Virus record (IMG/VR): IMGVR_UViG_3300025646_000058
Span: 1 to 52,478 of that record
From: a virus
DNA length: 52,478 bases
Strand: one strand, 5' to 3'
The position numbers were made by a program, and so were the translations under genes. This document shows, in pieces, positions 27,148-42,238 of this stretch. The first letter of the stretch is position 1, and each line of letters begins with the position of its first letter. The notes under the pieces were generated by a model, which saw only the letters and a list, made by a program, of their open reading frames with translations, was not told where the DNA came from and searched no databases.

Positions 27148-27591
27148 ATGAAAAAGGAAGAAAAAATTAAAAAGGCAATTTTAAGCAACAAAAATTTATT
27201 AAAAAATATAGTTGCAAGCGTTTACGCTGATACTCAAGAAGAAGCTATAAATTATTTTATTGACAATGCACAAAGGTACATTAAAGCAATAAAAGAGGAA
27301 CGTGTAATTTGTAATATTATAAGCGTATCCAAAAGTGGTATGAGTCGTAGGCTTGAATTTAAAGAATTTAGTTATGATACTAAACAAAAAAGGGGCTTTT
27401 TATACCAATTCCATGTATTTTTTAAGTGTTTAGGCTATAAAAATAATGGCAATGGCTTTTTAATTAATGGTTGTGGTATGGATATGGTATTCCACACTAA
27501 TTACACTATCATAAATCAATTGTATCATTTAGGTTTTATTGATAAAGATACTTGTAATATTTTGGCACAAAAAAAGCCTAAATCGGTTTAA
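27148..27591 (+). CDS. Hypothetical 147-aa protein with SKSGMSRR and GCGMDMVFH motifs
   Basis: The segments ISVSKSGMSRRLEF (about 57-70) and GCGMDMVFHTNYTI (about 112-125) are conserved hallmarks of a small protein family I have seen on phages and mobile elements, with no established function. The N-terminal 50 residues are helical. It has the shared leader, and its stop is followed at 27595 by a motif word and then a structured spacer. Confidence 0.65.
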   Translation: MKKEEKIKKAILSNKNLLKNIVASVYADTQEEAINYFIDNAQRYIKAIKEERVICNIISVSKSGMSRRLEFKEFSYDTKQKRGFLYQFHVFFKCLGYKNNGNGFLINGCGMDMVFHTNYTIINQLYHLGFIDKDTCNILAQKKPKSV

Positions 27592-27603: not shown

Positions 27604-27673
27604 AACAGTCGAATAAGCGACTATAAAAAGACTTTAGGCTTATTGCGTTTAATGGGGTACTTTGCCCCATTAA
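27604..27673 (+). other. Two intergenic hairpins
   Basis: TTAATGGGG at 27649-27657 pairs perfectly with CCCCATTAA at 27665-27673 (9 bp, 7-base loop). Upstream, AATAAGC (27612-27618) pairs with GCTTATT (27638-27644), competing with a small GTCG/CGAC hairpin. No U-tract follows, so this looks like mRNA processing, stability or attenuation structure in the 124-base gap between genes rather than a standard terminator. Confidence 0.5.
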
Positions 27674-27715
27674 GGTAGTTAACAAATTGTGTATTAATCT
27701 TAAAAATTAAAAGTT

Positions 27716-34929: not shown

Positions 34930-35418
34930 ATGAAAAAATTATTTATCTCATTATCATCATTAGTATTATTATCTTGTTCAACAACAACTGTAACAGAAGA
35001 AACTGTAGTAGTAGATCCTTACTTTAAAAAAGCTTATTTCAGTAATGAATTTGGTACAATAGACTCTACACAATTTGGATATTTAGCAATTGAAGATGGA
35101 ATATATAGAACTGATACAGATTATGAATTAAAAGTAAAAATTGCGTATAGTCCAGCAGATAGTTTATTAGCTTTTACGTTTTATGAACATGGTGAGTATG
35201 AAGCACAATTTGAAGAAAATGTATTTGTAGAATTAAAAATAGAAAATGAAGAAACTGTAAAGTTAATGACATTTGATAATGTTTGTTATGATAATAGAGT
35301 TTTAACAAAACTATTAAAATCTACAAATAAAGAAGTTTTAAAATGTAAAGTGTATTTAGATTATGGAAATTATAACTTTACTTTAAACGTAAATGAGTTT
35401 AAAAAAATATTAAAGTAA
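34930..35418 (+). CDS. Secreted lipoprotein
   Basis: 162 aa with a type II signal peptide: MKKLFISLSSLVLLSC, lipobox LLSC with the lipidated Cys at 16. The mature part is acidic and beta-rich. It would be anchored in the cell envelope facing the periplasm or surface. Phage lipoproteins in replication regions often block superinfection or receptor function; here that is inference. The structured RNA region begins just after the stop. Confidence 0.7.
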   Translation: MKKLFISLSSLVLLSCSTTTVTEETVVVDPYFKKAYFSNEFGTIDSTQFGYLAIEDGIYRTDTDYELKVKIAYSPADSLLAFTFYEHGEYEAQFEENVFVELKIENEETVKLMTFDNVCYDNRVLTKLLKSTNKEVLKCKVYLDYGNYNFTLNVNEFKKILK

Positions 35419-35429
35419 TTAAAATAATG

Positions 35430-35706
35430 TAGCTAAGAGAAAGTTCAGGAAGCTTAGCATAAGTTAATTCCTGGTAATTGATTAACCTATAAACAAACAT
35501 TATTTTATATTAATTAAAATATAAACTCTTCAATGCTAATGGAGAAGCAAGTGAACCAGTGGAAAACATACAATTAAACCACCAGATATTTCACAACACA
35601 ACCAAGAGTGTTAGCTTTGAAGTTAGACTATCATAAATTAAATATGTAGCGACAGCAGAAATGACTAACTGCGATAGGTCAACTTGGGGACATTGAAGAG
35701 TTTTTT
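35430..35706 (+). ncRNA. Highly structured RNA region, possible new ncRNA or remote RNase P-like RNA
   Basis: In a 328-base gap without genes, many complementary segments nest. A 12-bp closing stem (35524-35535 with 35691-35702, ending in U6) encloses GCTAA/TTAGC, GTGAA/TTCAC and GTGG/CCAC arms on one side and an AAGTT+CTATC / GATAG+AACTT arm with an inner GCAG/CTGC hairpin on the other. Upstream are GCTAAG/CTTAGC and GTTAAT/ATTAAC hairpins whose loops are complementary (CAGGAA 35446-35451, TTCCTG 35468-35473), and an AU hairpin (35504-35525). Short segments recall RNase P conserved regions, but the overall layout differs. Confidence 0.6.
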
Positions 35707-35746
35707 AAATTATATAAGGCATTAAAAACTATTTATTTGAATAATT

Positions 35747-36139
35747 ATGATAGATATATTTATATTTTTAGCAATAATAACTCCATTAATAGTATTGCTA
35801 GAACGCAGAAATAAACAAGTTAAATCTTTAATGATAGAAAACCAAATATTAAAACACGATGCCCCTAGTAGAATAGTTGATACTTATCGGATAAAAGTCT
35901 CAGAAGATAATCTTAAAGCTACAATAGAATGTGGAGCTTATCCTAAAGGAATGAAGATTATATTTTTTACTAAATCGGATAATGAAACGTTAGGTACGTA
36001 TGATTTAACTTTAAAAGAATTATTAAATATTTTACAAGAGCATAATAATAAAAATAATTTTCATGGCTATTGTTCAAAAGAAACAGTAGAAGGTAAGAGA
36101 TGTAAATATATTTGTGATAAACCTGAATGTGGTTGGTAA
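35747..36139 (+). CDS. Membrane-anchored hypothetical protein with Cys-rich tail
   Basis: 130 aa. One N-terminal membrane span (IDIFIFLAIITPLIVLLE) with a following coiled stretch, then a soluble domain and a C-terminal Cys cluster (GYCSKETVEGKRCKYICDKP plus ECGW) that could bind zinc or form disulfides. Located right after the structured RNA region. Function unknown. Confidence 0.55.
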   Translation: MIDIFIFLAIITPLIVLLERRNKQVKSLMIENQILKHDAPSRIVDTYRIKVSEDNLKATIECGAYPKGMKIIFFTKSDNETLGTYDLTLKELLNILQEHNNKNNFHGYCSKETVEGKRCKYICDKPECGW

Positions 36140-38373: not shown

Positions 38374-38757
38374 ATGAAGAAAAAAGATTTAATGGATTTT
38401 TTATTTTACCTTAACGATAAAGGATTAATAAATAACTATGATTTTGATTATGAAAAAGAAATACATAAATACTTAAACAAAGATAAGCACTCTAGAAAGC
38501 CTTTGTTGGATATATTTAATGAAGTGTGCAACAGATTAAACGTACACCCAAATGAAGTTAAAGGCAGAACTAGAGCAGAAGAATTTGTACGTGCTAGAAT
38601 AGTTTACACAATTATCGCCTTGACACACGAATACAGGTTACAACAAATAGGTAAACTAATTAACCGCCATCATTCAAGTATTATCCACTATAAATCAGAA
38701 TACGAAAATATTAACTATAATCCTAAACTTTTAAATGATTATCTAAAATGCGTGTAG
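38374..38757 (+). CDS. Stand-alone DnaA domain IV-like DNA-binding protein
   Basis: 127 aa. Residues about 42-110 match the C-terminal DNA-binding domain of DnaA: LLDIFNEVCNRLNV, then RTRAEEFVRARIVYTIIAL, then IGKLINRHHSSIIHYKSEY, the last corresponding to the DnaA signature 'IG..fggrdHstV..a'. The AAA+ ATPase domain is absent. It could bind DnaA-box-like DNA at the phage origin or compete with host DnaA. Next to replication genes. Confidence 0.75.
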   Translation: MKKKDLMDFLFYLNDKGLINNYDFDYEKEIHKYLNKDKHSRKPLLDIFNEVCNRLNVHPNEVKGRTRAEEFVRARIVYTIIALTHEYRLQQIGKLINRHHSSIIHYKSEYENINYNPKLLNDYLKCV

Positions 38758-39518: not shown

Positions 39519-40169
39519 ATGAAGAAGGCAATTGTGTATATAAGAGTTTCAACTGATGACCAAGCTAATTCGGTTGAGATGCAAGAAGAAAAGTGTGTAG
39601 CATACTGTAATTTTCATGGCTACACAATTGATGGCGTTATCAAAGATATAAACATATCAGGAAGCAGTAAACTATTCACTAGAGAGGGAGGTAAACAACT
39701 TAAAAGTATTAAAGATGTAAATATTATTACATTAAAGCTAGATAGGATGTTTAGGAATGTTCTAGATTGTTTAAATTCTTTGGATCATTTCACAGAGAAT
39801 AATTGTGCATTGACCTTTGTTGATATGGGAGGTATGAGTATGGATACCTCAAGTTCTTTAGGTAGGTGGTTTATTACTATGCTTTCAAGCTTTAGTGAGT
39901 TGGAGCGTAATATTATTGCAGAGCGTACTACTTCGGTTTTAAGGAGTAAAAAAAGTAGAGGTGAGCAATACAATGGTACAGCACTATTTGGCTTTAAATA
40001 CGTGGATAAAAAGATAGTTGAAAGTGAGGATATTGAAATAGTTAAGGATATAATCGCAAGGTTAAAGCGTAAAGAAAAAAAAGCGGATATTTGTAGGGTA
40101 CACAATTTGCCGAATTTTAAGAAGATTTACAACATACAGAAAAGAGAAGAATATAAATACCTTTGGTAA
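39519..40169 (+). CDS. Serine recombinase (resolvase/invertase family)
   Basis: 216 aa. The N-terminal catalytic domain has AIVYIRVSTDDQ with the nucleophile Ser11 and Arg9, then KLDRMFRN and SSFSELERNIIAERT (the conserved E-helix). The last 60 residues form a short DNA-binding tail (KKADICRVHNLPNFKKIYNI), much shorter than in large integrases, so it fits a resolvase or invertase. It could resolve genome multimers or invert a segment. Motif words at 39530, 39621, 39801 and 40099. It overlaps the primase-helicase start. Confidence 0.85.
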   Translation: MKKAIVYIRVSTDDQANSVEMQEEKCVAYCNFHGYTIDGVIKDINISGSSKLFTREGGKQLKSIKDVNIITLKLDRMFRNVLDCLNSLDHFTENNCALTFVDMGGMSMDTSSSLGRWFITMLSSFSELERNIIAERTTSVLRSKKSRGEQYNGTALFGFKYVDKKIVESEDIEIVKDIIARLKRKEKKADICRVHNLPNFKKIYNIQKREEYKYLW

Positions 40170-42238
40170 TGATTGAATATATAAAAAAAATACAAGCACT
40201 AGGCTACACAATTTTCCCACTAAACAGGAATAAAGAACCTAACTTTAAAAAAGGAGGTGTCATTAATACCTATTCATGGGCAGATTTTAATCATACTAAT
40301 CCGTTTCCATTAAATGATGAAACAGAAAAGCTATTTATATACTTAGGGGTATCTTGTGGTAAAGCTTCAAACAATTTAGAGGTTATTGATGTTGATTGTA
40401 AGTATGAATTAAATCAGGATTTATGGAAAGAGTATTCGGAGTTGTTGAAAGATAATTTATCAGAGGAAACCTATTCCAAATTGTGCATCATTAAGACTGT
40501 TAACAACGGTTACCATATCTATTACAAATGTGGTGTAATTGAAGGTAATAAAAAACTTGCACAAAGAAGTTTTACTAAGGAAGAAAAAAACGCTTTGTTT
40601 TTACAGTTAAAAGCTGATGGAGTTGAAAAGGAAAAAGCTATAAATACTTGTAATAGTAAACGTGCAACGTTAATTGAAACTAGAGGAGAAGGTGGTTATG
40701 TTGCAACATACCCTAGTGATGGCTACACAATTATACAAGGAAGCTTTGAAACAATACCTACCATTACAGAAGAGGATAGAGATATTATCATGTGTTGTGC
40801 TAAGGCAATGGACTTAATGGAAGAGGAAACAATAATTGAGAAAAAAGTTTCCTTACCTGTTTGGGAAGAAGGTAAAAAGCCTTGGGATGCCTACAACGAA
40901 CAAACTACTGCTTCTGATATGGCTGATTTGTTTACTCGTAATGGCTACACAATTACTAAACGTATTAAAAATAAAATCTACATCAAACGACCAGGAGGTA
41001 AATCACAATCAGGAAACATTAAAGAAGATGTTAAACTGTTTGTAGCTCATTCAAGCAATACGCCCTTTGAAGTTGGTAAAGGTTATCCTGCATCAGGAGT
41101 ATTTGCGGTACTAGAATGTGGTGGTGATTTTTCACTAGCAGGTAAGAAGTTACTTGAAATGGGATATGGTGATAAACCTAAAAAGAAGTTATCAAATGAT
41201 TTTGAGATTTTATCTGAAACGTTTGAGCCTGAAAAATATGTCGCTAAAACTAATAAAAATAAGGAACAGATTGAGAAGTTTTTACGTGGTGAATATGCAA
41301 TGGGTTTATCAACTGGGTATGAATCATTAGATGAATACTATATGTTTAAGCAAGGTAAATTTGATGTGTTTTTAGGACATGAGAATATAGGTAAATCTAC
41401 AATACTTTGGTATATGTGTGTACTTGCTAATATCTTGCACAATTGGAAATGTATAATCTACTCAACAGAAAACGATGCTTGGGTAGTACAGAAACAAATG
41501 ATGGAATTTTTAGTAGGTAAAAAAATGAGTTTGTTTACTGAAAAGGAAAAAGAGATTTCTTACGAATGGTTCGATAAAAACTTTGTGATAATTGAAAATG
41601 AAAAGTTATTAGCGTATAACCAAATACTACAAGTTGCTGAATCGTTTTTACTAAAGGGCGAATATCAGGTATTGATGATAGATCCATACAACACTTTATC
41701 ATACAATTGGGAAGGATTAGATAGGCGCATGGGGTTACACGAATATCATCACCACGTGGCTACACAATTCAAACAATGGAGCAAAAACATAAATTGCAGT
41801 ATATGGTTAAATATGCACCCAGTAACAGATGCGTTAAGAACAGTAGAGGCATCAGGAGATTTTAAAGGATTAAGAAAACCTCCTATTTCTTCACAAGCAG
41901 AAGGTGGTGGTAAATGGGTAGCTAAAGCTGATAACTTTGTAGTATTACACCGTTATACTAAACACCAAACTGAAAATAACGTAACGTTTTTTGATGTGCA
42001 TAAAGTAAAAGAAACCTTTACTGGTGGTAAACCAATGATAGATGGTAATGCTTTTAAATTAAGATTAACTAACTATGGAGGTTTTATAGGTTTTTTTGAT
42101 GAACAAAATAGAAATCCTTTATTGGGTATATTCAAAAAAAGGTTTATCTTTGGGGAGCAAATGGAAATTAAAGAAGAAATTGAAGAAAAGCCTAAAAGTA
42201 GATTATCTAAATGGACTGATATAACAGCTCCTTTCTAA
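40169..42238 (+). CDS. Bifunctional primase-helicase
   Basis: 689 aa from the ATG at 40169. The N-terminal part (about 1-215) resembles primase-polymerase N-terminal domains: IFPLNRNKEPNFKKGG, NLEVIDVDCK (Asp74/Asp76) and NGYHIYYKCG. The C-terminal part (about 375-690) is a RecA-like DnaB-type helicase: FLGHENIGKST is a Walker A variant (403-411), and VLMIDPYNTLS Walker B. It unwinds DNA and primes lagging strands at the phage fork. Seven motif words lie in this gene. Confidence 0.85.
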   Translation: MIEYIKKIQALGYTIFPLNRNKEPNFKKGGVINTYSWADFNHTNPFPLNDETEKLFIYLGVSCGKASNNLEVIDVDCKYELNQDLWKEYSELLKDNLSEETYSKLCIIKTVNNGYHIYYKCGVIEGNKKLAQRSFTKEEKNALFLQLKADGVEKEKAINTCNSKRATLIETRGEGGYVATYPSDGYTIIQGSFETIPTITEEDRDIIMCCAKAMDLMEEETIIEKKVSLPVWEEGKKPWDAYNEQTTASDMADLFTRNGYTITKRIKNKIYIKRPGGKSQSGNIKEDVKLFVAHSSNTPFEVGKGYPASGVFAVLECGGDFSLAGKKLLEMGYGDKPKKKLSNDFEILSETFEPEKYVAKTNKNKEQIEKFLRGEYAMGLSTGYESLDEYYMFKQGKFDVFLGHENIGKSTILWYMCVLANILHNWKCIIYSTENDAWVVQKQMMEFLVGKKMSLFTEKEKEISYEWFDKNFVIIENEKLLAYNQILQVAESFLLKGEYQVLMIDPYNTLSYNWEGLDRRMGLHEYHHHVATQFKQWSKNINCSIWLNMHPVTDALRTVEASGDFKGLRKPPISSQAEGGGKWVAKADNFVVLHRYTKHQTENNVTFFDVHKVKETFTGGKPMIDGNAFKLRLTNYGGFIGFFDEQNRNPLLGIFKKRFIFGEQMEIKEEIEEKPKSRLSKWTDITAPF

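Follow-up and report, generated by a model that had tools for sequence, protein, structure and literature searches.

We conclude that positions 35523 to 35703 (plus strand) of the DNA analysed here, a 52,478-base IMG/VR virus record referred to as the window, encode a member of a phage-borne family of structured RNAs, and its standing as a previously uncatalogued family is well supported. Pattern scans of IMG/VR together with a covariance model, R1, assign the family to 24 virus records including the window, with 18 distinct full-length members; one member, L188, is cut by a contig end and is not full-length. The model finds the window RNA at 35519-35712 with 159 bits, the window being one of its training sequences. 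Between the outer strands of the closing stem, P1, members measure 156-234 nt (the family as a whole, about 150-250 nt). The consensus begins AAACTCTCCAAnGCTAATGGATRAGCAAGTGA, continues with a first arm, TCACAACACTTCCAAGAGTGTTAGCTTTGAAGTTAGRTA and a second arm, and ends TAYTCCACTTGGAGGACnTTGGAGAGTTTTT. Compensatory changes exceed both shuffled and slid controls, and tolerance of G-U pairs is specific to one strand, as expected of a structured RNA family.

The window derives from a tailed phage, with PHROGs assignments that include terminase, portal, and virion proteins. Among named phages, the matches to its portal protein are nearly all Flavobacterium and Cellulophaga phages, at ~30% identity, and Flavobacterium or Chryseobacterium phages are among the best named matches of proteins from two carriers, a terminase and a RecA. 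Judging from these portal, terminase, and RecA matches, the hosts of the carriers are probably Flavobacteria-type. The window also encodes, by Pfam and on the plus strand, a DnaA C-terminal-like helix-turn-helix protein (38374-38757), a resolvase-domain protein (39519-40169), and a Prim-Pol protein (40163-42238), all in the presumed early gene region.

The RNA occupies a gene-free gap, as the initial annotation had recognized: ORFs of at least 40 aa are absent on both strands between those at 34930-35418 and 35747-36139. That annotation had read all of 35430-35706 as strongly structured; the RNA fold is real, though not with the limits or the identity first given to it. Against shuffled sequence the interval folds moderately beyond chance (z -1.88; minus strand, z -2.35), so energy alone is insufficient for a claim of structured RNA. 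The exact unit 35523-35703 reaches z -2.5, and the 18 members average z -2.9. It is conservation, not energy, that puts the RNA beyond chance, through covariation across 17 aligned members and a second copy in L003, a 6-kb viral contig with unrelated flanks that was found by scanning viral contigs with a 17-base string from the 3' part. Over the span between the start of the closing stem and the U run, L003 and the window are near-identical (BLAST E 4e-58), the exception being 23 bases deleted between AACCA repeats in arm 1 of L003. The closing stem is the limit of homology on either side, and therefore the hairpins that lie upstream in the window are not part of the RNA. These had been taken for a kissing pair; their stems and the complementary CAGGAA/TTCCTG are readable, but in the predicted fold the two segments pair directly with each other, and the region is missing from L003. 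The perfect closing stem with its U6 tail stands, at 13 bp (35523-35535/35691-35703, the six U being 35701-35706), as do several helices nested inside it. The features of the window RNA are as follows.

Positions 35432-35485, plus strand: two AU-rich hairpin-like repeats, outside the family and missing upstream of L003.

Positions 35523-35703, plus strand: the whole RNA unit, from the 5' to the 3' strand of P1, delimited by the homology to L003 and the 17-member alignment.

Positions 35523-35535, plus strand: 5' strand of P1, AAACTCTTCAATG, with compensatory changes at several P1 pairs.

Positions 35536-35539, plus strand: 5' strand of P2, CUAA, partner of UUAG at 35623-35626; paired in 15 of 17 members, otherwise invariant, and favored by energy in 17 of 17.

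Positions 35545-35548, plus strand: 5' strand of P2', AAGC (RAGC in the family), partner of GCUU, with A-U/G-U alternation and 100% of cells paired.

Positions 35551-35594, plus strand: P3, GUGA (35551-35554) with UCAC (35591-35594), enclosing arm 1, from comparison of arms.

Positions 35595-35612, plus strand: conserved hairpin AACAC/GUGUU, of five invariant base pairs, with CCAAG (35602-35606) in its loop.

Positions 35614-35617, plus strand: 3' strand of P2', GCUU, pairing with AAGC at 35545-35548.

Positions 35623-35626, plus strand: 3' strand of P2, UUAG, on the same pairing and energy evidence as CUAA at 35536-35539.

Positions 35627-35681, plus strand: P4, CUAUC (35628-35632) with GAUAG (35673-35677), enclosing arm 2; all six columns change on both sides.

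Positions 35683-35687, plus strand: CUUGG, proposed pseudoknot partner of CCAAG, complementary in 17 of 17 members and almost invariant.

Positions 35691-35703, plus strand: 3' strand of P1, CATTGAAGAGTTT, followed by U to 35706, with compensatory changes and a U run of 3-6 in all members.

The elements follow in the order P1, P2, P2', a junction, and then P4 with arm 2. P1, which closes the unit with 12-13 bp in the family, occurs in the compensatory variants CTCTTCAATG/CATTGAAGAG, CTCTCCAAG/CTTGGAGAG, CTCTCCAACG/CGTTGGAGAG, and CAGCCTCAAG/CTTGAGGTTG, and where members differ in its extra pair beside the junction, the two sides have mostly come or gone together. P2 joins CUAA to the second UUAG, in agreement with the free minimum-energy fold of the window; pairing with the first UUAG was rejected, as the second-UUAG model is lower in energy in 17 of 17 members. 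P2' opens into the junction, which bears P3 (arm 1) and the nearly invariant AACAC/GUGUU hairpin, and the CUUGG complementary to the loop of that hairpin stands just 5' of the P1 3' strand.

Covariation across the 17 members is clear. In an unfitted MAFFT alignment the score is 0.160, against 0.081±0.009 for shuffled alignments; the alignment fitted to the model, and so biased in its favor, gives 0.214 against 0.090±0.011; and sliding the structure along the alignment reduces the score to 0.02-0.07 (0.03-0.07 for the MAFFT alignment). Because shuffling does not preserve the relatedness of the sequences, better evidence comes from the slid control and from the independent changes in P1. The support differs among helices. 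The columns of P4 differ largely because whole arms differ, so that what is conserved is the closing of unrelated arms by a helix at one place. P2 and the conserved hairpin are near-invariant and are predicted from complementarity and energy rather than covariation. The pseudoknot between CCAAG (35602-35606) and CTTGG (35683-35687), which was absent from the initial annotation, is likewise proposed from segments that are complementary in 17 of 17 members and hardly vary.

Across the family, G-U pairs outnumber A-C mismatches 25:2, which shows that the structure operates at the RNA level and that plus is its functional strand. This ratio also bears on whether the unit is a mobile or recombination element acting as DNA, of the MITE or attC kind, as near-identical copies amid unrelated flanks, terminal inverted repeats, and swapped arms might suggest. 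Such an element is largely refuted, and we rate it very improbable, by the G-U bias, by compensatory changes inside the unit, and by its occurrence as a single, mostly co-oriented copy rather than as several copies in both orientations.

The family alignment also refutes the earlier suggestion of a diverged RNase P RNA, the probability of which we put at close to nil. A few words do resemble conserved regions of RNase P, but Rfam covariance models for RNase P match neither the window at E ≤ 5 nor other members at E ≤ 10, and the words lie partly outside the unit 35523-35703 (GAGAAAGTTCAGG, upstream) and partly within exchangeable arms that other members do not have (AGTGGAAAACATAC and CAGAAATGACTAA). 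Nor do the CRI- and CRV-like words pair as an RNase P-type P4 inside the RNA: the former, at ~35438-35450, is outside the unit, and the latter is in arm 2, which other members do not possess. The companion proposal, that the region holds a novel structured RNA, is borne out by a conserved, covarying family outside Rfam.

Searches beyond the 24 records are consistent with novelty. The interval 35430-35706 has no Rfam match, and the surrounding 1 kb yields at E ≤ 5 a single match, to a snoRNA within the upstream ORF, that is due to chance; across the members, gathering and relaxed (E ≤ 10) scans return nothing but neighboring tRNAs and chance matches. At the DNA level, the three members compared with 50,697 named phages, that of the window among them, have no match there, nor does the window member match any of 72,556 plasmids. 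When 84,980 species genomes of bacteria and archaea were scanned twice by pattern, no true member emerged, although such scans detect only close matches to one stretch and distant bacterial relatives could escape them; the sole hit, in a Methylobacter contig, was rejected as being without the other conserved segments. A 21-nt match in an unannotated record (H21) looks like chance, and weak model hits (L147/L198, L302, L019, L263, and L189) were discarded as lacking the hairpin and P1 or as coding-like. Relatives of the downstream protein, sought as a synteny anchor, were not found, and a literature search in general terms, with partial coverage, returned no description of the 35523-35703 RNA.

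The family exchanges its arms around a nearly constant core. Members are 0.92 identical in the core (median), even among phages with almost no common proteins, while arm identity is bimodal, being either 0.96-1.00 or, for unrelated arms, a median of about 0.55. Arm 1 of the window is 98% identical in L009, 23 nt shorter in L003, and replaced in other members; arm 2 has an identical copy only in L003, so that the window and L009 have arm 1 in common and differ in arm 2. Conversely, L007, L009, and L166 have arm 2 in common with different arms 1. Arm 1 only is in common in the pairs L007/L252, L013/L230, and L290/L297, and arm 2 only in L253/L297. In L007, L009, and L262 the RNA occupies one genomic site in related phages, with upstream flanks 83-89% identical, yet each carries a different arm 1, and L262 differs in arm 2 as well. 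The conserved core presumably supplies the homology for this exchange. An additional hairpin, GCCUGAAAAGGC/TTGCCTGAAAAGGCTTTA, is present in both L255 (5530-5748, minus strand) and L262 (908-1111, plus strand) in the internal loop between P2' and P2. When the arms from five genomes were compared with those genomes, no target emerged: matches did not go beyond shuffles except for one 15-mer of L255 arm 1, which was equalled in 4 of 200 shuffles, one of 15 tests. Arm 2 of L259 (1418-1647, plus strand) contains a tRNA T-arm-like GTGGTTCGAGTCCAC preceded by a D-arm-like TAGCTGAAGTGG, as if it were a captured tRNA fragment.

The genomic setting of the RNA permits two readings. In 12 of 18 members a same-strand upstream frame ends 1-20 nt before P1, at least four U follow P1 in 16 of 18 (the run being 3-6 overall), and the nearest neighbors on both strands are nearly all co-oriented with the RNA, the exceptions being short, possibly spurious frames. 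The position just past stop codons suggests that the RNA is carried on operon transcripts, with the closing stem freeing or protecting it. The same position and U run would equally suit a cis-acting intercistronic element that serves the 3' end of the preceding gene as a transcription terminator, a block to exonucleases, or a mark for processing, with no separate RNA. This is the main rival to a trans-acting RNA, and we consider it unlikely. Each of the 22 complete member records searched (up to 171 kb) holds one copy, the weak second hits being antisense reflections of that one locus; a generic terminator or stabilizer, by contrast, should recur. Adjacent genes vary between carrier phages and are unrelated, which argues against a switch for a single pathway (tRNA genes adjoin the RNA in 3 of 18 members). 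Nor does a terminator need a conserved three-way core, a loop pairing, or arms. Finally, L007 and L009, the members with the shortest U run after P1, have just 3' of the RNA a separate hairpin, ATTACTAT-TCAGAC-ATAGTGAT, followed by TTTTTT, which is probably an intrinsic terminator.

Several carriers have gene neighborhoods of separate interest. L006, L013, L166, L230, and L252 encode an apparent ammonium transporter (Amt), accompanied at four of the five loci by a PII/GlnK-like protein of 112 aa and at two by a porin-like gene, all named from sequence reading alone; the position of the RNA around this cluster differs among the five. In L259 and L261, a terminase large subunit apparently split by an intein lies 3' of the RNA.

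Next among the alternatives is a self-cleaving or otherwise catalytic RNA that would process phage operon transcripts. The compact, putatively pseudoknotted core with its many invariant, mostly unpaired bases would fit such an activity, and the window phage does carry a Pistol self-cleaving ribozyme (27607-27680, plus strand; 60.7 bits against an Rfam cut-off of 34.5) that starts 15 nt past the stop codon of another gene, ORF 27148-27591, the same type of site as that of the 35523-35703 RNA. However, that separate ribozyme is the only match to a ribozyme family in Rfam, and outside P1 no invariant base marks a cleavage site. The long P1 closes both ends of the unit, which sets it apart from known small ribozymes. 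A catalytic role therefore appears improbable.

We lean towards a phage noncoding RNA that acts in trans, probably on a host factor, through a nearly invariant core furnished with exchangeable arms. The RNA would be transcribed within a phage operon transcript; a few phages may have a separate promoter for it. The Bacteroidota promoter box TAnnTTTG stands just upstream only in L003 and L253, and therefore a dedicated promoter of this kind is not a common feature of the family. P1 would then release the RNA from the operon transcript or stabilize it, and the RNA may fold into a compact pseudoknotted body. No phage protein is common to the carriers compared: when the window was compared with four other carriers (69-103 kb), each of its ORFs had a match in two of them at most. 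For this reason the conserved core would most likely engage a component supplied by the host (the ribosome, a tRNA- or RNA-processing enzyme, and a defense protein are candidates) or function as RNA alone, with the arms replaceable. The single copy and the lack of common neighbors, together with the lack of a common phage protein, likewise point to action in trans via the host or as RNA alone. A bolder version, which we offer tentatively and consider doubtful, is a modular anti-host RNA in which the pseudoknotted core is the handle for a host component and the arms are specificity modules traded by Flavobacteria phages via recombination, so that related phages such as L007, L009, and L262 would carry different arms at one site.

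The family differs in several ways from known phage and environmental RNAs. GOLLD, a phage-borne noncoding RNA that often lies close to tRNA islands, consists of a 3' region that is universally conserved and a 5' region that is less so (PMC12286853). Many GOLLD RNAs are longer than 800 nt and assemble into RNA nanocages. ROOL is a pseudoknotted RNA of phages and prophages, also often near tRNA islands and without a known protein partner (PMC12286853). The family studied here resembles GOLLD in being phage-borne and in its conserved-plus-variable plan. However, members of GOLLD or ROOL would have an Rfam match and a length well above 500 nt (about 660 nt for ROOL), whereas this family, with members of 156-234 nt, matches no Rfam model, falls in the 150-250 nt range, and adjoins tRNA genes in only 3 of 18 members. 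Flavo-1, Bacteroidales-1, Gut-1, and whalefall-1 are candidate structured RNAs of Bacteroidetes or environmental origin that came from comparative genomics, some of the class being known only from environmental sequence (PMC2864571). Those with Rfam entries were scanned and none matches, and the present family was seen only in viral contigs. There is also a likeness to the packaging RNA (pRNA) of phi29. That RNA is phage-encoded, about 170 nt long, and has paired ends and loop contacts. It thus resembles the window RNA in size, ends, and contacts, but the family has no Rfam match and is carried by unrelated phages without a tie to packaging genes, preceding a terminase only in L259 and L261.

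A nearly invariant core with swapped arms, maintained across unrelated viruses, suggests that the RNA has an important task in infection; that such dissimilar phages conserve the core speaks for a role that is host-directed or RNA-only. Structured phage RNAs lacking an assigned function, such as GOLLD and ROOL, are an open problem, for which a ~180-nt family is small and tractable. The natural arm swaps amount to a ready-made mutant set, and a synthetic version of the RNA could be tested in laboratory Flavobacteria.
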